Under the pieces are notes generated by a model. It ran no database searches. It was not told the DNA's origin and worked only from the letters and a program-made list of their open reading frames with translations. Shown here in pieces: positions 5,447-16,921 of a stretch of DNA of 36,479 nucleotides; within the stretch, counting starts at the first letter, position 1, and each line of letters begins with the position of its first letter. This DNA is from an uncultured Clostridia bacterium (GTDB taxonomy: Bacteria; Bacillota; Clostridia; Christensenellales; Borkfalkiaceae): assembly GCA_944367465.1 (NCBI GenBank), contig CALVWO010000012.1, positions 1-36,479 on the forward strand, read 5' to 3'. The position numbers and the translations under genes were made by a program.

Positions 5447-6065
5447 GCGGAAAGGCAGAAAAATACTTATTTTGCTCAAAAATTTGTACTTTTCCGTTGA
5501 GAAGATCGGCAAGCTCCGCACAGAACGACGCGGCGTCCCCTTCGCGCACGCGCACTGTGAACGCGGCGTCAGCGGCAAATTCGCGGCCGAGAACGGCGCA
5601 GCGCCCTTCGAGAAAGCGCATGAGCGCGTTGACCTCGGGATACTCCGCGCGAAGCAAAATCTCGGAGCACATATCGTAAACGCATTTTTCCGACTCGGCG
5701 AGCGCCTCCGCCGCCGACGAGGAATAGGCGCGCGTAAGCCCGCCCGCACCCAGCTTGATCCCGCCGAAATAGCGCACGACGGCGACCGTCGTTTCAAACA
5801 GCCCCTGCGCCTTGATGACGTTCAGGATGGGCATGCCCGCCGTCCCCTGCGGTTCTCCGTCATCGGAAAAGCGCTGCAGATTGCCGATGCTGTCGGCAAT
5901 AAAGGCATAGCAGACGTGCGTGGCAAGCGGATGACCGGCGCGGACGGACGCGAGAAATGCGCGCGCATCTTCCTCGCCCGCCGTGTGCGCGGTATAGGTG
6001 AGAAAGCGCGATTTTTCGATGATCTTCTCGCGCAGATGCGTACCCGAAAGGCTCTTATAGCTCAT
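5436..6065 (-). CDS. yigZ: YigZ/IMPACT family protein
   Basis: A 209-residue member of the UPF0029/IMPACT family. The N-terminal half shows the family signatures [14 protein letters not shown] (about 64-77) and [15 protein letters not shown] (about 92-106). The C-terminal ~75 residues fit the DUF1949 ferredoxin-like domain. IMPACT relatives affect translation-stress signalling in eukaryotes; the bacterial role is not settled. The start ATG (6065-6063) overlaps the tyrS stop by four bases (ATGA), implying translational coupling. The reading frame continues upstream inside tyrS, but that part is antisense-like and not homologous to the family. Confidence 0.92.
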
Positions 6066-7255
6066 TCGCTGACGACCTTGACGCGGATCTTTTTCCCCTT
6101 GAAGAGCGTGAACGGGAAGGCGGGCAGCACAGCGTTCGCATCCGTCACCTTCTCGCCGTTGACGGTAACGCCGCCCTGCTCGACGAGACGGCGCGCCTCG
6201 CCGTTGGACTTGCAAAGCCCCGCGGCAACGAGCGCCTGCAGCACCGTAGCGGTATCGGAGGGCACCTTCTTTTCGGGCATCTCGCCCTCGCCGCCGAATG
6301 CGGCGCGCGCCTGTGCCTCTGCCGCAGCCGCCTTCTCTTCGCCGTGCACGAGCTTGGTGAGCTCGAAGGCAAGCACTTCTTTTGCCCGGTTGATGCGTTC
6401 ATCCTTGTGCGCGCAGAGCGCGGCGATCTCCTCCAACGGAAGGAAGGTAAGAAGTTTCAGGCACTTTTCCACGTCGGCATCGTCTGTGTTGCGCCAGTAC
6501 TGATAGAATTCGTAAGGGCTCGTTTTGTTTTCATCGAGCCAGACGGCGCCCTTCTGCGTTTTGCCCATCTTCTTACCCTCGCTCGTGGTGAGGAGGGTGA
6601 ACGTCATGGCGAACGCCGCCTTGCGCTCCTTGCGGCGGATGAGATCGGCGCCGGCAAGAATATTGCTCCACTGATCGTCGCCGCCCATCTGCAGCAGGCA
6701 GCCATACTTGCGGTTGAGCACCAAAAAGTCGTACGCCTGCATGAGCATATAGTTGAATTCGAGGAAGGTGAGCCCCTTCTCCATGCGCGAACGGTAGCAC
6801 TCCGCCGTGAGCATTTTATTGACGGAGAAATATACGCCGATATCGCGCAGGAAATCGACATAGTTGAGATTGAGGAGCCAGTCGGCATTGTTGACGACAA
6901 TGGCGCCGTTTTCGCCCTCGAAACGGATAAACCGCGCCATCTGCTTTTTGAAGCACTCGACGTGGTGTTCCACCGTTTCGCGCGTCATCATAGAGCGCAT
7001 GTCCGTTCTGCCGGAAGGGTCGCCGATCATGCCCGTGCCGCCGCCGATGAGAATGATGGGACGGTGCCCCGCATCCTGCATGTGGCGCATTGCGATGAGC
7101 GTGAGGAAATGCCCGACGTGAAGGCTGTCTGCCGTCGGGTCAAATCCGATATAGAAGGGAACGGACTCGCTCCCGAGCTTTTCGTAGAGCTCCTCTTCGT
7201 ACACCGTCTGTTTGATAAATCCCCGCGCGCGCAGGGTGTCCATTACGTTCTGCAT
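6062..7255 (-). CDS. tyrS: Tyrosyl-tRNA synthetase
   Basis: A 397-residue class I aminoacyl-tRNA synthetase that charges tRNA-Tyr in the cytoplasm. The HIGH signature is HVGH (residues 46-49), the substrate pocket motif GGDDQWSNI is near 191, and the KMSKS loop is KMGKT (229-233). A C-terminal S4 RNA-binding domain (about 335-397, with GVTVNGEKV) binds the tRNA. Length and layout resemble the TyrZ-like bacterial branch. The start is fixed by GAGGAG (7267-7262) six bases before ATG 7255. It is the first gene of an operon with yigZ. Upstream there is no T-box but a Tyr-codon-rich leader peptide and attenuator (7287-7413), so expression is probably controlled by Tyr-tRNA charging. Confidence 0.97.
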
Positions 7256-7286: not shown

Positions 7287-7389
7287 CAAAAAAACGGTTT
7301 ACGCCGCGCGTAAACCGTACAAAATCTTATAATGATCTACGCGCGCAAAAACTGTATTACAGGCAAGCGTAATACAGATAGCCGTAGAT
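7287..7389 (-). promoter_or_regulatory. Putative tyrS transcription attenuator
   Basis: Read on the minus strand, four mutually exclusive segments are visible. Segment 1, ATCTACG (7389-7383, inside the leader peptide's first Tyr codon), can pair with segment 2, CGTAGAT (7341-7335). A segment overlapping 2, CGCGCGTA (7345-7338), can instead pair with segment 3, TACGCGCG (7312-7305). Segment 3 lies inside an intrinsic terminator: CGGTTTACG (7317-7309) / CGTAAACCG (7303-7295) followed by seven T (7294-7288). A further perfect 9-bp hairpin CTGTATTAC / GTAATACAG (7377-7369 / 7360-7352) joins two Tyr codons to the leader stop codon. Ribosome stalling on Tyr codons would free segment 2 for 2:3 pairing and prevent termination. 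Pairings are seen; the mechanism is inferred. Confidence 0.75.
7288..7317 (-). terminator. Attenuator terminator upstream of tyrS
   Basis: A 9-bp perfect stem with a 5-nt loop and seven T. It sits 33 bp before the tyrS start codon and 40 bp after the leader peptide stop, the position expected for a conditional terminator. Confidence 0.85.
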
Positions 7390-7413
7390 TGCAACTGCGA
7401 GCGAACGTTTCAT
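7357..7413 (-). CDS. Tyr-rich leader peptide of tyrS (18 aa)
   Basis: A short frame ATG...TAA encodes MKRSLAVAIYGYLYYACL, with four Tyr codons in a six-codon window (TAC, TAT, TAT, TAC at codons 10, 12, 14 and 15). The ATG falls exactly about 7 nt after the -10 box (7425-7420), where transcription should begin. It may therefore be translated as a leaderless message, and no separate ribosome binding site exists. Tyr clustering in front of tyrS, with an overlapping set of alternative hairpins and a terminator, is the hallmark of trp-operon-style attenuation leaders. It is too short for ordinary gene callers. Confidence 0.75.
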   Translation of the reverse strand: MKRSLAVAIYGYLYYACL

Positions 7414-7419
7414 GATGCT

Positions 7420-7448
7420 ATTATACTCCGCGGCGCTCGCTTTGTCAA
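7420..7448 (-). promoter_or_regulatory. Consensus promoter of tyrS
   Basis: Minus strand TTGACA (7448-7443), a 17-bp spacer, TATAAT (7425-7420): a perfect sigma-A consensus. A strong promoter followed by an attenuator is logical, because output is then set by read-through. Confidence 0.9.
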
Positions 7449-7464: not shown

Positions 7465-7650
7465 TCATGCAAAATTCAGCTCCTTTTGTTCGCTTTCCGG
7501 CATATTCAGCCCGCGCAGCGCGCAGAGGCGCGCAAAGGCGCGTTCGAATGTGCCGTCGCGCCGCATATTTTCGCAGAGTTCGCGGTTGCGTTCGGCACGG
7601 GCGGCGCGGCGCTTGTCCTCGAGATACATTTCCATAGAGAGCGTTTTCAT
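7465..7650 (-). CDS. Possible small charged protein, unknown
   Basis: A 61-codon frame starting at ATG 7650 (MKTLSMEMYLED...). It is rich in Arg/Glu and predicted helical by eye, with codon choice like neighbouring genes. It recognisably resembles nothing I know. GGGAG lies only two bases before this ATG. Other in-frame starts at 7668, 7680 and 7635 are no better supported. The gene would lie between the WYL promoter and the tyrS promoter. It may be a real small protein or a chance open frame. Confidence 0.35.
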   Translation of the reverse strand: MKTLSMEMYLEDKRRAARAERNRELCENMRRDGTFERAFARLCALRGLNMPESEQKELNFA

Positions 7651-7673
7651 ACTCCCTATTTTACGCATGATAC

Positions 7674-7702
7674 TTGACATATATTGTCATGTATGCTAAA
7701 AT
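7674..7702 (+). promoter_or_regulatory. Promoter of the WYL regulator with palindrome
   Basis: TTGACA (7674-7679), 17 bp, TAAAAT (7697-7702). A TGACA-N5-TGTCA inverted repeat (7675-7689) overlaps the -35 and spacer. This is a plausible autoregulatory operator site for the HTH protein encoded downstream. Confidence 0.7.
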
Positions 7703-7740
7703 TTTTTTAAGAAAACAAAAAAATTTTCGAGGGGTCACAC

Positions 7741-8667
7741 ATGAAATACCAGCACATGATCGACATGCTCTTCGTTCTGCTTGCAAAGCGCCGCATTTCG
7801 GCAGGCGAACTCGCCGCACGGTACAATATCTCGGTGCGCACCGTCTACCGGTACATCGACGAAATGACGGTGGCGGGCATCCCCATCGACGTTGCGCGCG
7901 GCGCAGGCGGCGGGATCTACATCTCCGATACATATAAACTGCCGAAGGGATATATGACGCGCGAGGAGTACGAAAGCGCCATTAACGCCATGCAGGCAAT
8001 GGAGAGCGAGCTTGGCGACCCCGCCCTCTCCTCCGCGATCAGCAAGCTCAGCGCCAAGGCAAAGGAGGAACGGCAGGACGGCGCCATTACGGGGAATATT
8101 CTTGTGGACAGCGGAACATGGGGAAACGAACGTAAATTTTCGGAAAAGCTCACGCTTCTGGAGCGGGCGATCGCGGAAAAGGAGGCGCTGGAGATCGACT
8201 ACATCGCACGGGACGGCGAGCGGACGCGGCGGATCGTTCTGCCCCATCTGCTCGTTTATAAGCAGAACATCTGGTATGTGTACGCATACTGCCGCCTGCG
8301 CGGCGCCTTCCGCCTCTTCAAGATCGGGCGCATGCGCTCCATATTAAAGACCGGGGAACACTTTTCCCCCATGCCCTTTTCGCGAGACGACGTACCGCTC
8401 TCCTTCTGGACGGACGAGGAACAGACGGTACAGGCAAAATTCCTCATCTCGCCCGACGTTCTCCCCTTCGCAGAGGAGTGGCTCGGCATTGAAAACGTGC
8501 GCGAGGAAGACGGACAGTTCGTTGCAGACGTCGCCCTCCCGGACGACGATCAGCTCGTGGAAAAGATCCTCTCCGCGGGCGCGGGATTCAAAGTACTTTC
8601 CCCCGCGCCGCTTGCCGAGCGTGTACGCGACGAGGCAAGGAAGATCGCGGAGAGCTATTCAAATTGA
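7741..8667 (+). CDS. HTH/WYL-domain transcriptional regulator
   Basis: A 308-residue YafY/PafC-type regulator. Residues ~1-60 form a DeoR-like winged helix (LAARYNISVRTVYRYIDEM as recognition region, then the GGIYI wing). Residues ~140-225 form the WYL ligand-sensing fold with IWYVYAYCRLR in place of the WYL triplet. The C-terminal ~70 residues match the WCX extension. Such proteins act as DNA-binding switches responding to small ligands or nucleic acid. The start is supported by GAGGGG six bases before ATG 7741. It is transcribed alone from 7674-7702 and ends in a terminator shared with the convergent giant gene. Targets are unknown. A related TGACA/TGTCA palindrome occurs at the giant gene's promoter. 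Confidence 0.9.
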   Translation: MKYQHMIDMLFVLLAKRRISAGELAARYNISVRTVYRYIDEMTVAGIPIDVARGAGGGIYISDTYKLPKGYMTREEYESAINAMQAMESELGDPALSSAISKLSAKAKEERQDGAITGNILVDSGTWGNERKFSEKLTLLERAIAEKEALEIDYIARDGERTRRIVLPHLLVYKQNIWYVYAYCRLRGAFRLFKIGRMRSILKTGEHFSPMPFSRDDVPLSFWTDEEQTVQAKFLISPDVLPFAEEWLGIENVREEDGQFVADVALPDDDQLVEKILSAGAGFKVLSPAPLAERVRDEARKIAESYSN

Positions 8668-8722: not shown

Positions 8723-11700
8723 TTACCAACCCTGTTCCGTGTACTGCGATACCGTACCGAGTTCAATCGTCTGCTGCGACCCGTCCGCCGCAGTATAGGT
8801 ATAGCAATAGGTGAGGCTGACTGTGATTTCAAAACGCTTACCGCCCATAATCTCCCCACCGAATGAGCAGGAATCCGATGCCACATATCCCTGATGCGTT
8901 TTATTATAAGTCCTGTTCAGCGCACCACCGGTTAAATGGAAATTGTAGGTCGTTTGAATCGTTAAATTGTCGTCGAATTCCAGACCGTAAAGACTTCCAC
9001 CAGAAATTTTAGCTTCCGATGAATACTTTCTGCTCATTCCCAACCAACCATCTGAGACATCGGATGCCGTCGCAGAAATCTGAATATTGCTTGCCCAGAG
9101 CGCCTCGACGGTCGTGTTTGCACCGCCGACGACGGAATAGGAGATCTCCGTCACTCTGACGGGATTTCCGTTTTCATCGAGCACATACCAGCCGAGGAAG
9201 GTATAGCCATCCGCCGCGGGCGTTTCGAGCGTATACGTGCCGTCGAACTCCACCGTCGTTTCGGAGACGTTCTCCGCCCCGCCCAGCGTGAAGTTCACGC
9301 CGCTGCTCCTGTAAGTGACCGTATCGGGTGCGAGCGGAACGCGGATGGAGGAATCGTCTGCGGTGTATTCGAACGTTCCCTCTTCCCAGAGCATGTTCTG
9401 CGGGAGCCCTTCGATCGCGGTGAGATCGAACACACAGTTCTCACCCGTAACGCGGAACGTATAGGTATTCTCGCCGTACACAAGGCTGATCGCGGAATCT
9501 GCGAACATCTGCACGGAGACGGAATAGGTTCCGTCTTCGTTCTTTTCCCAGCTCGGGCCGAGCGCACAGGGCGCAATGATCGTGACGGTATACAGATCGG
9601 GGATCTGATCGGAAAGATCCGCCGTAGGATCCTGCGTGCCGTCCGAAATATCGCAGGGATTATGGAAGGTGAGCGTTGCGTCCACTTTGAGAACGGAGAG
9701 CGACGTCCGGAAATTCAGCGTGCGGAGCACGTTATCGGTTCCCGCATAGTTCGACGAGGCAAGCGTGAGCTGCATATCGCCGAGAACGCCGCCCGTGAGC
9801 GCGCTGCCGTTGAAATTGAGCACCCACTCGCTGCCCTGTTCGCCCTGCCGATAGGAATAACTGCTGAGCACATCGGAGAGCACGGTTCCGTAATCGTCCG
9901 TCTCCGGAGTCGTCTCCGAAGAACCGCCCGATCTCATCGCATCAGCAACGGTATCGGAGAAGTTGAACATGAATATGACGTGATCCATGATGTCGGCAAA
10001 GAAACTCTCCAACGTAAGAACACGGTACTTCACATCGCTCCCGATCGTACGGCGCAGGTACACCATGCCCTGTTTGACGGTGATATCCGTCGTGCCGCCC
10101 TCGTTGATCGCAATGATGACCTTCGGGAACGTGATGCTCGCGTTGATCGTGAGCTCCCCGTTCTCATCGACGGAGACGGACAGTCCGTTGACCGTGACGG
10201 TGGCGGCGGGGATCTCGAAAAGAGTCAGATCGATGACGACTTCCGCCGAACCGCTGATAAAGAAGTTTCCGTTGAGGGCGTATCCGTCGTCCGTTTTGTG
10301 CGTGGCGGAGAGCGCAATGGATTTGAGCAGTTCGTCCGCGCCCTCGAACATATAATTGCTGTAATCGGTATAATTGAGGGAAGCGACCTGCGCATCGCCT
10401 GCGGACAGCGTGATTCCGCTCTCCGTATAGCCGAGCGTGAGCGCATCGTAACCGATATCGAAGTTCACGCTCGTCTTATCGGCATTGCCCGCGCCGTAGA
10501 TATTGGCGACCGAAATGCCCGAAAGGAAGGAACTGCCTGCCTCGCCGTTTTTACGGAGCATAACGGTGAGATCGTCGAGCCCCTCTCCGCCATAGACGAG
10601 GTCGGAATCGAGCGTGACGGTGAACACCGTTTCGCCGTTCTCCGAAGAGACGCCCAGCTCTTTCAGATAATAATCGAAGGGCATATCCGCAAGCACGGTT
10701 TCGCCCGTGATCGCATCGGACACATCGCCGAGGATCCCCTCGACCGCGTCTTTGATGCCGAGCGTACTTGCGAGCATCCCGCCGACCGCGCCGAACTGCC
10801 CCTGCTCGTCGTCGGAAAGCCACTTGGAGACGAAGTAGCTGTCGAGCGTTTCAAAGAGCGCTGCCGTCGTCTCCTCGGGGAACCCGAGCGTTGTGAGGAA
10901 GTCTGCAAGCGTATCCTCCATCAGCGAAACGCCGCTGGCGGCGATCGTCATAAGATCGCTTGCCGAGACCGCAAAATTGAGCGGTTTACAGCGCGAATCT
11001 TCCGGCTGATACTTGGAGAGACTGATAAAGAAGTCGAGCTCGCCGTCCTGCTCGTAATCGAACATCCAGAACTGCAGATACAGATCGGTGCCGTCCGCGG
11101 CGACTTCATCGAGCCAGAGCGTGAAATAGACGTAAGCCTCGGGATTGACGACGAGAGACTGCGCCGCAGTATCCAGCGTGAAGAAGGTTTCGCCCGCATT
11201 GCCCGCATGGTAGACGAGCTCGCCGTCGATCTCGAATTTCGCGGAGCCGTCCGCATTCACGGAAACGGAATCGTTGAAGCTGATGCGGACATCGTTCGAA
11301 GAGAGCGTTGCTGCCGCGGCGCCCACGAAATCGAGAAGTTCGCACAGGCTTCCGGCAGTCATGTACGAGCCCGAAGGCTGCGTTACAGCGCCGTCGGAGA
11401 CGCCTGCCGTGAGCGAGCCCGAGAACGCCGCCTCTCCAAGAGAAACTTTGCCAATATCGACGGAGACAGCGCCCTCCGAGACGAAGAGTTCCGCACGGAT
11501 ATTGCCGTAAGCGACGGAGGCAACGCCGCCCTTTTCGGGCGCGCCGAAGGAAACGCCATCGATGATCTGCGGGATATCAAGCCCCGCGAGAAGATCGGTC
11601 ACGGCGGCGCCGGCGCCCGCGAGCGCGGAGAGTTCCCCGAGCGTTGCAGGGATCTGCGCGCCCTTCACGTAATTGCTCAGGATCGCGGAGATGCGCTCGT

Positions 11701-14700
11701 ACGCTGCCTCGAAGGCGTTGCCGACCTGATAGAGTTCATCGTATACGAGATCGACGCCGACGCTGCCGTACACGATCGTGACGCGCGTTTCATCGGCATA
11801 GACGACGATCTTCTGCGCCGTTTCGCCCGCCGTGATGATCAGATCGAGCGAGAGGCGGAAACCGTCTTTCCAGCTCACCGTACCGTTCTGCACGGAGACG
11901 GAGGCGGCGAAGTCTTTATAGCCGACGCTGAGCGTGCCGCTGAGGGCGAGCGCCTTGTTTTCCACGACGGCAAGCACCGTATCGAGCACGGGCGTGATGT
12001 CGGCATGACCGGCATACTCCGAAGCATCGACCGCGAATGCGCTGCCCGCCGCGAGCGTGACGTGCAGTCCGCCGAGCAATGCCTCCTCACCCTGTACTTC
12101 GGCGGTCAGTTTGCCGTTTTCCGCAGTGAGCGCCACGTCCCCAAGTGCGAAATCGACCCCGAGCGCCTCCAGAAGCTGCGTTCCACCGATGACGGCTGAT
12201 GTTTCTGATTTGAAACGGATGATCTCGCCGAGATCGAGCGAGAAAAGATTTTTCAGGATCGCGGAGATATCGCTCCCGTCCTGCGTTCCGATGGCGGAGG
12301 AGACGAGCCCGGCTGCATCTGCCGCGTTGAGTTTGAGCTTTGCCCCTTCGAGGGTGAGGTAGACATACCCTTCCTCGCCGTAAGCGAAGTCGATCTTCTT
12401 GGCTGCGGAGCCGCTGCCGTCCGTATAGGAAACGGTAAGCGAACCCTTTACCGCAAGATTTTCAAGGGAAACGGAGACATCCGCAAGCAGCGATACCTGC
12501 CCGGCGGCAAACTGCACCTGCGCATCGACGCCGCCGTCTGCCACGATCCCGAGAATGGTCTCCGCCATCGGAAGGATATCCGTGTACCCTTCGGTATCGG
12601 CGGAGAACTCCGTCGTCTTCGTGACGGAGAGCTTTGCGCCGAGCGCGCTTGCCGCGATCTCTTCCGAAGAGACCGTGAGCGACACGTCGCCCAACTCAAA
12701 ATCAATGCCGAACGCCTTCAGCAGCTCCGTTCCCTTCGCGTTCACCGTGAGCGCGTTCGTATCGTCAAGTCCGATGAGTTTGCCGAGATCCAGCGAGAAC
12801 AGCGTTTCGAGAATGTCCGTCTCTTCCTGCGTGAATCCCTTCCCGTCCGCGCCCAAAAGATCTGCGACGAGCGAAATCGCCTCTTCCGCGTTCGCCTTCA
12901 CTTTGAGCCCGTTCACGTTGAGGTACAGCGCACCGTCCTGATAGATGAGCCCGACGGCGATCGCTGCACCGCTGTAATCGATCGTCACTTCGCCCTGCAC
13001 GGCGAGCTCTTTCAGCGAGAGGTTCACATACCCCTCCGCAGAAAGTTCTCCCGCCGCATAGGCGATCTCCGCGCGCAGATACTCCGCATCCGTAAAGAAT
13101 CCGATGAGCGCCTCTGCATACGGCAGGATGTCCGTATATTCGTCGGTGATGACCGCCTCGAACGCCTCCGCGCCCGTCACCGTTGCCGTCGCCCCGAGCA
13201 CTTCCGCCGTCAGCGCGCCGTCCTTTACCGTGAGCCGCACGTCGCCGAGCGCAAAGTCGATCCCGATCGCCTTCAACAGTTCCGTCCCCTTCACGACGAC
13301 AGAACTCTCGTTTTCAAAATCGATGAGGCTGCCCAAGTCGAGCGAGAGCAGTTTGCCGAGAAGATCGCCCTCCTCCGCACTCAGTCCGCCCTCTGCGCCG
13401 AGCAGATCGGCGATGAGCGAGACCGCCTCTTCAACGTTCGCTTTGACTTTGATGCCGTCGATATCCAGACCGAGCTCGCCGTCGCCGTAGATGACGCCGA
13501 CCGCCTTTGTTTTACCCTTGTACCCGAGCGTGAGTTCCCCTGCCGCCGCGAGCGTGCTCACATTGAGCTTTACGTTCCCCTTTACCGTGAGATCGCCCGC
13601 CGCGTAGTTCACGCTTGCCTGCAAATTCTCGTTGCCGAACAGCGCGATGAGTTCGTTCACCATCGGAAGAATATCCGTGTACCCCTCGGTATCGACGGAG
13701 AATTCCTTCCCTGCGGTAACGGAGAGCTGCGCGCCGAGCACGCTTGCCGCGATCTCTTCCGAAGAGACCGTGAGCGACACGTCGCCCAACTCAAAATCGA
13801 TCCCGAACGCTTTCAGCAGCTCCGTTCCCTTCACGTTCACCGTGAGCGCGTTCGTATCGTCAAGTCCGATGAGTTTGCCGAGATCCAGCGAGAACAGCGT
13901 TTCGAGAATGTCCGTCTCTTCCTGCGTGAATCCCTTCCCGTCCGCGCCCAAAAGATCTGCGACGAGCGAAATCGCCTCTTCCGCGTTCGCCTTCACTTTG
14001 AGCCCGTTCACGTTGAGGTACAGCGCACCGTCCTGATAGATGAGCCCGACGGCGATCGCTGCACCGCTGTAATCGATCGTCACTTCGCCCTGCACGGCGA
14101 GCTCTTTCAGCGAGAGGTTCACATACCCCTCCGCAGAAAGTTCTCCCGCCGCATAGGCGATCTCCGCGCGCAGATACTCCGCATCCGTAAAGAATCCGAT
14201 GAGCGCCTCTGCATACGGCAGGATGTCCGTATATTCGTCGGTGATGACCGCCTCGAACGCCTCCGCGCCCGTCACCGTTGCCGTCGCCCCGAGCACTTCC
14301 GCCGTCAGCGCGCCGTCCTTTACCGTGAGCCGCACGTCGCCGAGCGCAAAGTCGATCCCGATCGCCTTCAACAGTTCCGTCCCCTTCACGACGACAGAAC
14401 TCTCGTTTTCAAAATCGATGAGGCTGCCCAAGTCGAGCGAGAGCAGTTTGCCGAGAAGATCGCCCTCCTCCGCACTCAGTCCGCCCTCTGCGCCGAGCAG
14501 ATCGGCGATGAGCGAGACCGCCTCTTCAACGTTCGCTTTGACTTTGATGCCGTCGATATCCAGACCGAGCTTGCCGTCGCCGTAGATGACGCCGACCGCC
14601 TTCGTTTTACCCTTATACCCGAGTGTGAGTTCTCCTGCCGCCGCGAGCGTGTTCACGTTGAGATGGATCGTTCCTTTCGCCGTGAGATCGCCCGCCGCGT

Positions 14701-16921
14701 AATTCACGCTTGCCTGCAAATTCTCGTTGCCGAACAGCGCGATGAGCTCGTTTACCATCGGGAGGATATCCGTGTATCCCTCGGTATCGACGGCAAATTC
14801 CTTCCCTGCGGTAACGGCGAGCTGCGCGCCGAGCACGTTGACGGAGAGCGCGCCGTCCGAGACGGAGAGTTCCACGTTGCCGAGCGCAAAGCCGCCGAGG
14901 TCGACGCCCAGCGCCTTGAGAAGTTCGTTCCCCGCAAGGACGACTTCGAGCACGTTCTCCTTTTCGGAGAGAGAAATATTGGAGGCAAATTCATCGGAGA
15001 GGAGCGTCGTGAGCAGATCACCGAGCGCAAAATCGCCCGTGCCGACGGCGGGAAGTTCTCCGCCGATAAACTGCATGACGAGCGCGATCGCCTCCTCCGC
15101 ATTCGCCCTGATCTTCACGCCGTCAAGATCGATATACGCATAACCGCCCGTATAGGCGATGCCGATCTTCTTTTGCGCGCCGCCGACGGAAAGCGTGAGC
15201 GTACCCTGCGCGGAGAGGTCGTTCAGATCGGAAATATTGACGTTGAGCGTACCGCCGACGGAGAATCCGTTCCCCGCGTAATCGACCGAGACTGCAAGGA
15301 CATCGCTGTCCATGATGCCGAGCACGGTCTCCGCATAGGGAATGAGATCGGCATATTCGCCCTCTTTGACGGGCACGCTCTCATCGGAATAGGCAAGGCG
15401 CGCGGAGATCTCCGTGCCGTCGAGCGATATATCCGCAGAGATATGCCCGAGCGAGATCGTGCCGTCCTCCGCGATGAGGAATTCAAAGTGAACGGGAAGC
15501 GAGACCCCCATGAGCCCGAGCGTGGAGTCGAGCGTGGCGCTCCTGCCGTCGTCGGAGACTGCGAAGTCTCCCCCGCCGAGCTGCGCGAGGAGCTCATCGG
15601 TATCGAGAGAGATCCCGCCGTTCCCGCCTTCCGGAAGGAAGGAACGCAGGAGCGCGAGGAGTTCTTCCGTTCCCGCGCCGACCTTTACGCCGTCGCCGTA
15701 AGCGAGGCGGATCTGCCCGTCCGCATAGCCGATATAGAGATTGCCGAGCTGCGCCCGAAGCTCCATATCCGCCATGTCCGCCGCGTCCACATAGACGAGC
15801 CCCGAGACAGACGCGCCGTCGATCGCAAGATCGAGCGAGAAGGTGACGGGGCCGCTCAGCACGGGTGCGAAGGCATTGGAAAGGCACGCCGCCGCCGTGA
15901 CGGTTTCCCCGTCGGGTGCACCCGTAGCGGGCTTATCGGCATAATCTTTGAAGTACGTATCGTATGCGTCGGAGAGGGCTTTCTCGGTATCGTACTCGTA
16001 ATTCGTCGTGTAGGACGCGGTGCAGCCGACGGAGACGCCCATGGTCGCCGTATACGTTTCGCTGATGACCGACTGCAGAACCTGCCAGGTGCTGTCGAAT
16101 GTGTACGTTACGGTGATCTGCTCGAAGGAAGGCAGCGCCGTGAGCCCGCCCGTGAACATCATCTGGTTGACGTAGTAGGCGGGCGCCTTGTCGGTCGCGG
16201 GATCGAGGTAATAGGTCTGGGTATAGGTGCCGTCCGCATTGACGACGACGGGATCGGCGCCGAGCAGCGTCTCCTCGTTGATGACATAGACGGAGAAGGA
16301 CGTGCCGGGCAGCCCGTTGCGCTTTTTGAAATCCTCAATGAGCGTGTTGCCGTAAGGCTCCCCGTCCTTCCAAACGGTATCCACGCCGTTGTACGTGGAG
16401 GGGCCGCCCGCGGCGTCGCGCCAAAGCACGCGGTCGCCGACATAGCAGAACTGCCGCGCCGAATTGACCATGCTCGAAGTGGTGATATCCGTCTGGATGA
16501 GCACGTCGTCGCTGAACTGCTTGTAGGTGCCCACCTCCTGCTTGATCATCGTATCGACGAGCCCGTGCATCTCGTTGTAATAATTATCCTGCCCCATGAG
16601 GCGGGTGTTCATATAGCCGATATTTTCGAGCGCGGTGTGCGCATCGGGCGTGGAGCCGTCCGTCGGCAGATCGTACGCGACAGTGACGAACCCTTCATCG
16701 ACAACATTGGGTGCAGTATCCTGAAAAAAGAGCGCGTTCACGCCGAAAACGCCGAGGCACAGAACTGCCGCAGCGGAAAAACTTGCCAGAACCTTGGTGA
16801 CCCGGCGGTGATATTTGGCTTTGAGGCGCAAGCCCCCTCTCTTTTTTGCGACTGCGCGGGGGCGTTTTTCGTTTTCGATCGGGTGGAGCCCCTCCTCCAC
16901 ACGCTCATGAGGCTGTTTCAT
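8723..16921 (-). CDS. Giant secreted repeat protein with InlB-type repeat
   Basis: A 2732-residue protein. The N-terminus is ~40 basic residues followed by one hydrophobic segment (about 44-66): an uncleaved anchor or a long signal peptide, placing the rest outside the cell. Residues ~520-1800 contain about seven tandem modules of ~180-190 residues. Each starts near Y(T/A)D(I/L)(L/I)P and includes a GxAYxDGxxYLxxxGxKxKxNAEEA-like beta segment and LFSLDLGxLI. Two further regions resemble diverged modules. Near the C-terminus is one Listeria-Bacteroides (InlB B) repeat, recognisable by YTFLGWY followed by VEALWA. No LPxTG sorting signal, catalytic motif or LRR was seen. It is likely an adhesin or structural surface protein; the fold of the module is unknown to me. 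The start has GGAGG three bases before ATG 16921, with a promoter at 16973-17001. Confidence 0.85.
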   Translation of the reverse strand: MKQPHERVEEGLHPIENEKRPRAVAKKRGGLRLKAKYHRRVTKVLASFSAAAVLCLGVFGVNALFFQDTAPNVVDEGFVTVAYDLPTDGSTPDAHTALENIGYMNTRLMGQDNYYNEMHGLVDTMIKQEVGTYKQFSDDVLIQTDITTSSMVNSARQFCYVGDRVLWRDAAGGPSTYNGVDTVWKDGEPYGNTLIEDFKKRNGLPGTSFSVYVINEETLLGADPVVVNADGTYTQTYYLDPATDKAPAYYVNQMMFTGGLTALPSFEQITVTYTFDSTWQVLQSVISETYTATMGVSVGCTASYTTNYEYDTEKALSDAYDTYFKDYADKPATGAPDGETVTAAACLSNAFAPVLSGPVTFSLDLAIDGASVSGLVYVDAADMADMELRAQLGNLYIGYADGQIRLAYGDGVKVGAGTEELLALLRSFLPEGGNGGISLDTDELLAQLGGGDFAVSDDGRSATLDSTLGLMGVSLPVHFEFLIAEDGTISLGHISADISLDGTEISARLAYSDESVPVKEGEYADLIPYAETVLGIMDSDVLAVSVDYAGNGFSVGGTLNVNISDLNDLSAQGTLTLSVGGAQKKIGIAYTGGYAYIDLDGVKIRANAEEAIALVMQFIGGELPAVGTGDFALGDLLTTLLSDEFASNISLSEKENVLEVVLAGNELLKALGVDLGGFALGNVELSVSDGALSVNVLGAQLAVTAGKEFAVDTEGYTDILPMVNELIALFGNENLQASVNYAAGDLTAKGTIHLNVNTLAAAGELTLGYKGKTKAVGVIYGDGKLGLDIDGIKVKANVEEAVSLIADLLGAEGGLSAEEGDLLGKLLSLDLGSLIDFENESSVVVKGTELLKAIGIDFALGDVRLTVKDGALTAEVLGATATVTGAEAFEAVITDEYTDILPYAEALIGFFTDAEYLRAEIAYAAGELSAEGYVNLSLKELAVQGEVTIDYSGAAIAVGLIYQDGALYLNVNGLKVKANAEEAISLVADLLGADGKGFTQEETDILETLFSLDLGKLIGLDDTNALTVNVKGTELLKAFGIDFELGDVSLTVSSEEIAASVLGAQLSVTAGKEFSVDTEGYTDILPMVNELIALFGNENLQASVNYAAGDLTVKGNVKLNVSTLAAAGELTLGYKGKTKAVGVIYGDGELGLDIDGIKVKANVEEAVSLIADLLGAEGGLSAEEGDLLGKLLSLDLGSLIDFENESSVVVKGTELLKAIGIDFALGDVRLTVKDGALTAEVLGATATVTGAEAFEAVITDEYTDILPYAEALIGFFTDAEYLRAEIAYAAGELSAEGYVNLSLKELAVQGEVTIDYSGAAIAVGLIYQDGALYLNVNGLKVKANAEEAISLVADLLGADGKGFTQEETDILETLFSLDLGKLIGLDDTNALTVNAKGTELLKAFGIDFELGDVSLTVSSEEIAASALGAKLSVTKTTEFSADTEGYTDILPMAETILGIVADGGVDAQVQFAAGQVSLLADVSVSLENLAVKGSLTVSYTDGSGSAAKKIDFAYGEEGYVYLTLEGAKLKLNAADAAGLVSSAIGTQDGSDISAILKNLFSLDLGEIIRFKSETSAVIGGTQLLEALGVDFALGDVALTAENGKLTAEVQGEEALLGGLHVTLAAGSAFAVDASEYAGHADITPVLDTVLAVVENKALALSGTLSVGYKDFAASVSVQNGTVSWKDGFRLSLDLIITAGETAQKIVVYADETRVTIVYGSVGVDLVYDELYQVGNAFEAAYERISAILSNYVKGAQIPATLGELSALAGAGAAVTDLLAGLDIPQIIDGVSFGAPEKGGVASVAYGNIRAELFVSEGAVSVDIGKVSLGEAAFSGSLTAGVSDGAVTQPSGSYMTAGSLCELLDFVGAAAATLSSNDVRISFNDSVSVNADGSAKFEIDGELVYHAGNAGETFFTLDTAAQSLVVNPEAYVYFTLWLDEVAADGTDLYLQFWMFDYEQDGELDFFISLSKYQPEDSRCKPLNFAVSASDLMTIAASGVSLMEDTLADFLTTLGFPEETTAALFETLDSYFVSKWLSDDEQGQFGAVGGMLASTLGIKDAVEGILGDVSDAITGETVLADMPFDYYLKELGVSSENGETVFTVTLDSDLVYGGEGLDDLTVMLRKNGEAGSSFLSGISVANIYGAGNADKTSVNFDIGYDALTLGYTESGITLSAGDAQVASLNYTDYSNYMFEGADELLKSIALSATHKTDDGYALNGNFFISGSAEVVIDLTLFEIPAATVTVNGLSVSVDENGELTINASITFPKVIIAINEGGTTDITVKQGMVYLRRTIGSDVKYRVLTLESFFADIMDHVIFMFNFSDTVADAMRSGGSSETTPETDDYGTVLSDVLSSYSYRQGEQGSEWVLNFNGSALTGGVLGDMQLTLASSNYAGTDNVLRTLNFRTSLSVLKVDATLTFHNPCDISDGTQDPTADLSDQIPDLYTVTIIAPCALGPSWEKNEDGTYSVSVQMFADSAISLVYGENTYTFRVTGENCVFDLTAIEGLPQNMLWEEGTFEYTADDSSIRVPLAPDTVTYRSSGVNFTLGGAENVSETTVEFDGTYTLETPAADGYTFLGWYVLDENGNPVRVTEISYSVVGGANTTVEALWASNIQISATASDVSDGWLGMSRKYSSEAKISGGSLYGLEFDDNLTIQTTYNFHLTGGALNRTYNKTHQGYVASDSCSFGGEIMGGKRFEITVSLTYCYTYTAADGSQQTIELGTVSQYTEQGW
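12646..14835. repeat. 1095-bp tandem duplication inside the giant gene
   Basis: Positions 12646-13740 and 13741-14835 are head-to-tail copies of a 1095-bp (365-codon, two-module) unit. Between about 12741-13484 and 13836-14579 I found no differences by eye, whereas the flanks of the unit differ at scattered positions. The duplication is in frame, so the protein gains two modules. The near identity implies recent duplication or gene conversion. Confidence 0.9.

Follow-up and report, generated by a model that had tools for sequence, protein, structure and literature searches.

A candidate leaderless attenuator with a tyrosine-rich leader peptide upstream of tyrS in a gut family of uncultured Clostridia

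In the trp operon of Escherichia coli, attenuation employs a leader peptide (trpL) rich in the cognate amino acid, three mutually exclusive helices (1:2, 2:3 and 3:4) and a terminator with a T tract. The tyrS gene of Bacillus subtilis is a textbook T-box gene, in which the charging of tRNATyr is read directly and the output is a choice between terminator and antiterminator. Leader-peptide attenuation can also act on a synthetase gene, as described for E. coli pheST with its leader pheM (Springer et al. 1985, as cited in PMC11802643). In bacilli, his leader peptides have been predicted for hisS paralogues and hisZ (PMC2965389), and leader peptides of his operons have likewise been predicted for the B. 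cereus group, Peptostreptococcaceae and Erysipelotrichales (PMC9413887). Leaderless leader peptides are found in Streptomyces lividans, where leuL precedes leuS, trpL precedes trpS and thrL precedes thrS (PMC8079986), and the trpL leader peptide of S. meliloti is leaderless as well (PMC7298713). As for tyrosine, the one mechanism that a 2005 survey names is the T-box (PMC1262725). Our search of the open-licence literature turned up a single further leader peptide in which a Tyr codon is a candidate, AroR of Corynebacterium glutamicum, an aromatic leader with a Phe-Tyr-Phe stretch before aroF that responds to phenylalanine and on which tyrosine has no effect (PMC11802643).

We describe here, from its sequence and from comparison with its relatives, the leader of tyrS in an uncultured Clostridia bacterium (Christensenellales; Borkfalkiaceae), found in assembly GCA_944367465.1, contig CALVWO010000012.1, positions 1-36,479, a stretch of 36,479 nucleotides that we call the window. 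The leader appears to be a ribosome-mediated (trp-type) transcription attenuator responding to charged tRNATyr, a reading to which we assign a probability of roughly 0.88. The mechanism itself is known, being classical ribosome-mediated attenuation. This locus shares with E. coli trp and pheST a cognate-rich leader, exclusive 1:2, 2:3 and 3:4 helices and a T-tract terminator, and in pheST the target is also a synthetase gene. Unlike them, the tyrS leader would sense tyrosine, is predicted to be leaderless and belongs to Clostridia, and its 1:2 pairing forms an outer helix, enclosing a distinct inner hairpin in which Tyr codons and, for the window leader, also the stop codon are located. Like the his leaders of Bacillota, it is an attenuator in place of T-box control and is known by comparison only; in contrast, those leaders concern histidine in other genes and lineages, and the available portions of the reports make no mention of a leaderless start (PMC2965389, PMC9413887). 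Leaderless frames, several of them before aminoacyl-tRNA synthetase genes, are a likeness to S. lividans and S. meliloti, although those cases come from Actinobacteria and Alphaproteobacteria and concern Leu, Trp, Thr and others, with no Tyr. AroR resembles the tyrS leader in its aromatic peptide, but does not respond to tyrosine. Finally, the T-box of B. subtilis tyrS has the same gene, the same proposed input (tRNATyr charging) and the same terminator/antiterminator output, but it reads the tRNA directly, without a leader peptide, and is absent here.

Layout of the tyrS leader

The leader is about 125 nt long and mostly occupied by the leader frame (Table 1). The gene regulated is very probably tyrS. 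A preliminary description of this DNA had proposed a perfect promoter, an 18-residue frame in which codons 10, 12, 14 and 15 specify Tyr, and a pairing of 7389-7383 with 7341-7335, and each of these is present as described, the pairing (helix 1:2) comprising 7 bp. The second pairing it proposed, between 7345-7338 and 7312-7305, also exists but is longer, extending in register to a 12-bp antiterminator (2:3; 7345-7334 with 7316-7305). Likewise, the intrinsic terminator between the leader frame and tyrS has the seven T it was credited with, on a stem of 11 rather than 9 bp (7318-7294). The 10-bp inner hairpin (7377-7352) was absent from that list. Segment 1 overlaps leader codons 9-11, segment 2 can pair with segment 1 or with segment 3 but not with both at once, and Tyr codons 10, 14 and 15 are located inside conserved helices.

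Table 1. Parts of the tyrS leader and its gene, by position in the window
Feature	Position	Strand	Basis
Promoter, sigma-70 type, TTGACA-17-TATAAT	7420-7448	minus	12/12 consensus positions
Leader frame, MKRSLAVAIYGYLYYACL and stop, 18 codons, predicted leaderless (ATG 7413, TAA 7359-7357)	7357-7413	minus	sequence; transcription start predicted
Segment 1, AUCUACG, contains Tyr codon 10	7383-7389	minus	pairs with 7341-7335
Inner hairpin, 10 bp then TTTTT; contains Tyr codons 14-15 and stop codon	7352-7377	minus	93.2% paired (23 sequences)
Segment 2, CGCGCGUAGAUC; partner is segment 1 or segment 3	7334-7345	minus	pairing analysis
Segment 3, forms the 12-bp antiterminator with segment 2	7305-7316	minus	nine core pairs 96.1% paired (23 sequences)
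Intrinsic terminator stem-loop (3:4), 11 bp, 3-nt loop	7294-7318	minus	97.2% paired (23 leaders)
T7 tract of terminator; first T also in stem pairing	7288-7294	minus	sequence
tyrS, tyrosyl-tRNA synthetase, 397 aa; AGAGGAG upstream	6062-7255	minus	Pfam tRNA-synt_1b E 1.3e-84, and S4

The ATG of the window leader lies 6 nt past the -10 element, at the expected transcription start. Each of the 53 curated leaders has a promoter in the equivalent position, and the gap from the -10 element to the ATG is 6 nt in 30 leaders, 7 in 12, 9 in 10 and 10 in one, leaving no room for a ribosome-binding (Shine-Dalgarno) site. On these predicted promoters, the start codon would sit at the 5' end without Shine-Dalgarno space, as in leaderless mRNAs, and the suggestion that the leader peptide is leaderless extends to 53 of 53. 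We infer that the leader frame would be translated from a leaderless 5' end. The source genome also has many consensus promoters with an ATG about 6 nt past the -10 element, at which the frame of a long protein begins (e.g. L065, L070, L075, L081, L082, L091 and L304), and thus leaderless mRNAs seem common in this lineage of Clostridia. A search of the source genome for further leaderless leader peptides, with strict and 2-mismatch promoter patterns, returned tyrS alone among the loci examined.

The surroundings hold features of their own. The tyrS promoter is separated from a divergent HTH-WYL regulator by a small frame of about 61 aa with no Pfam match (7465-7720, and 7741-8667 on the plus strand), and the gap between promoter and regulator contains the palindrome TGACATATATTGTCA. 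Similar TGACA-N-TGTCA palindromes and small frames recur upstream of tyrS in many relatives, and the palindrome is perhaps an operator of the HTH-WYL regulator. Further away (8723-16921, minus strand) is a frame of 2732 aa that contains long internal repeats and probably encodes a large surface protein.

Conservation of the tyrosine codons and of the helices

Judged by sequence comparison, it is the tyrosine codons that are conserved in the leader peptide. Among the 328 ATG frames of 10-40 codons on both strands of the window, the leader frame alone has at least four Tyr and at least 20% Tyr. Across the 53 leaders whose start is anchored by a promoter, 200 of the 1015 in-frame codons are TAY (19.7%), compared with 13 (1.3%) and 24 (2.4%) in the two remaining frames; all 53 frames carry at least two Tyr and 48 at least three. 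The other positions of the peptide vary freely between leaders (MKNISVTLAYVYYFYYRG, MKSFFCENGRYYIYAYAYCACASVCRA, MKNFALKNGLSYGYSYCYYRNTSFRVE, MKHEMSLAIYGKYLYRGEASGCFCA), and one leader (L129) has an apparent frameshift relative to its relatives. The position of the stop codon shifts between the inner hairpin and segment 2 while the Tyr run is retained. In L014-L016, L018, L019 and L023 the stop codon is inside segment 2, so that a finishing ribosome would occupy segment 2, just as the ribosome finishing E. coli trpL sits on segment 2 at the stop codon.

With Tyr codons 10, 14 and 15 lying within helices, one could suppose that RNA structure alone regulates the gene and that TAY is conserved merely through pairing (UAC within segment 1 and UAUUAC within the inner hairpin). 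However, genera with differing helix sequences still have Tyr-rich frames, with up to 6 Tyr per 18-28 codons and in one frame only. Moreover, the start of the frame keeps its fixed short distance from the promoter in 53 of 53 leaders, and the stop codon moves while the Tyr run stays intact. We give this alternative a very slim chance. A second alternative accepts the peptide but not the sensing of tRNA charging: the leader would be a nascent-chain arrest peptide of the TnaC or Erm type, with free tyrosine or some other small molecule being sensed inside the ribosome tunnel. Conservation of a short frame ahead of a regulated gene suits that proposal equally well, and I-Y-G-Y is kept among the leader peptides of close relatives. 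However, arrest peptides need specific residues at set distances, whereas only Tyr content and rough Tyr position are kept between genera, and the target gene here is the synthetase of the same amino acid. We regard an arrest peptide as very unlikely, and favor a trp-type attenuator reading charged tRNATyr.

The pairings are conserved along with the codons. Across 23 sequences, helix 1:2 is 88.8% paired with 2 pairs changed on both sides, the inner hairpin has 3 such pairs and the terminator helix 3:4 has 5. Combined in one alignment (A1), the terminator-form helices have 93.7% of cells paired and 10 two-sided pair changes, compared with 28-49% paired in slid controls; of 500 shuffles of this alignment, none reached the observed value on four of five measures and 3 did so on the fifth. 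Since the single-sequence shuffle test of helix 1:2 is weak (median z -1.1), support for this helix is taken from the alignment. The antiterminator 2:3 behaves differently in the covariance comparison of the segments. Its nine core pairs far exceed the slid controls (14-49% paired), but it varies by one-sided changes only, the pattern to be anticipated when both arms are needed for other pairings as well. In one leader (L047), segments 2 and 3 are both altered and pairing is retained. In another genus (g12), the terminator helix is predicted in a separate alignment, together with a partner for segment 2 further upstream within the frame.

Distribution, T-boxes and history of the element

TyrS was located in 59 of the 61 genomes of the genus, and the DNA upstream of tyrS was inspected. 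The leader architecture is shared by 23 genomes, most others having a promoter near tyrS and no leader; the element is absent from more than half of the sampled members of the genus. A covariance model built from the 23 leaders (R1) has a single match in the source genome, at tyrS; of the 398 genomes searched in the family, 77 have matches. Every inspected match of at least 38 bits is immediately upstream of tyrS and comes with a Tyr-rich frame, as do many weaker ones. In total, the architecture was verified before tyrS in 63 genomes from at least four genera of one family, so the Tyr-rich short frames and terminators that the preliminary description had suggested looking for in related tyrS leaders were found. 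This recurrence places the architecture far beyond chance, and together with the frame test rules out a chance origin.

Weak matches of the model at other places (L140, L142, L147-L150, L155, L157-L161 and L165-L167) have no Tyr leader and are mostly gene-end terminators. Outside the family, no match lies before tyrS, including those in other families of the order (L310-L312), and a convincing Tyr leader was found in none of some 30 additional families of the order, each represented by one or two genomes. Two loci of another family of the order (f31), L312 (genome G449) and L315 (G427), have an Ile/Val/Leu-rich frame (MNQTSSHNFIVVLINLISLVIIGRANKAYCGCAGGAR and MSKQYSHNFIVVLINLISLVIIGEANKAYCGCAERA, respectively), followed by a terminator with a T tract and then by an acetolactate-synthase-like gene, which is likely an ilv leader-peptide attenuator.

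A T-box, intact or degenerate, might also control the terminator by reading uncharged tRNATyr. A tyrS T-box is present in some other Clostridia (at L241, with the core motif at L235, L243 and L276), and each of the 61 genus genomes examined has T-boxes; in the source genome they control other genes, preceding a leuA-like (HMGL-like) gene, a putative asnB-like gene, pheS and thrS. Against this, Rfam searches of the tyrS leader at gathering and at permissive thresholds, up to E<=10, gave no match, T-box included, the core motif is absent before tyrS at every genus locus, and none of the T-box matches listed for the 61 genus genomes is at tyrS. Furthermore, the roughly 125-nt leader is largely filled by its frame. 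A T-box at this locus is therefore extremely improbable. The search for a T-box aptamer, which could have overturned the attenuator reading, thus came out in its favor, and relatives keep both the Tyr codons and the alternative pairings on which that reading was first proposed. The accompanying generalization, that leader-peptide attenuation is mainly a matter of Proteobacteria and Actinobacteria while tyrS in Bacillota is typically under T-box control, holds less well: its rarity claim is too strong because his leader-peptide attenuators had already been predicted in Bacillota (PMC2965389, PMC9413887), and the T-box core was seen in few of the sampled tyrS genes of the order.

On a TyrS tree, a minimum of 16 gains or losses is needed to account for the leader (mean after shuffling, 28), and leader-free species are interspersed among leader carriers. 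Some of these loci hold remnants. L021 and L171 have kept the promoter and the 3:4 hairpin, but nothing is left of the frame, of segments 1 and 2 or of the T tract; in L183 and L186 the terminator with its T tract is kept, and the Tyr frame and segments 1-2 are missing. The pattern reads as that of an old element lost repeatedly within the family, although transfer may also have played a part. In one genus (g4), nine loci (L127-L129, L131, L133, L137, L138, L141 and L152) have the Tyr leader before a strongly divergent TyrS (branch of 1.7 changes/site), and two (L125 and L126) have it before the ordinary TyrS type. Two types of TyrS under the same leader suggest either a replacement of the gene while the leader stayed in place or two separate acquisitions of the leader.

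Proposed mechanism and meaning

In the mechanism we propose, the first nucleotide transcribed would be the A of the leader's start codon, and a ribosome would load on the leaderless 5' end and trail the RNA polymerase. When Tyr-tRNATyr is scarce, the ribosome would stall at Tyr codons 10-15 and cover segment 1 and the inner hairpin; with segment 1 covered, 2:3 would pair and the polymerase would continue into tyrS. With ample charged tRNA, the ribosome would get to the stop codon and depart, allowing 1:2 to form, whereupon segment 3 would pair with segment 4 and transcription would terminate in the T tract. The inner hairpin is possibly a polymerase pause hairpin that would synchronise polymerase with ribosome.

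Folding calculations bear on both states. With a ribosome mask on Tyr codons 12-15, the probability of 2:3 is 0.97-1.00 (0.60 for codon 10), so stalling should antiterminate. At ViennaRNA equilibrium, the full window leader without a ribosome also favors 2:3 (probability 0.90), as it does with a ribosome modelled at the stop codon, and the energies with forced helices are about equal, the terminator form being better by 1.1 kcal/mol in the window and by a median of 0.5 over the 23 leaders. Equilibrium folding is thus no proof of a default 'off' state, which instead depends on the order of co-transcriptional folding. We infer that helix 1:2 would form first during transcription, perhaps aided by a pause at the inner hairpin.

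Tyrosine specificity, tyrS as the target and a lineage of Clostridia appear undescribed for such a leader in the open-licence literature. That it represents the first tyrosine-specific leader-peptide attenuator, leaderless, family-wide, standing in for a T-box and persisting across a replacement of its TyrS (two TyrS types in one genus), we put forward tentatively, at somewhat below an even chance. Tyrosine would be added to the set of amino acids that leader peptides read, and Clostridia would have a family of leaderless attenuators absent from Rfam. A lineage with T-boxes at pheS and thrS appears to run tyrS via a leaderless peptide. It would offer a natural case of how one tRNA sensor comes to replace another, in which the frequent losses in close relatives provide built-in comparisons.
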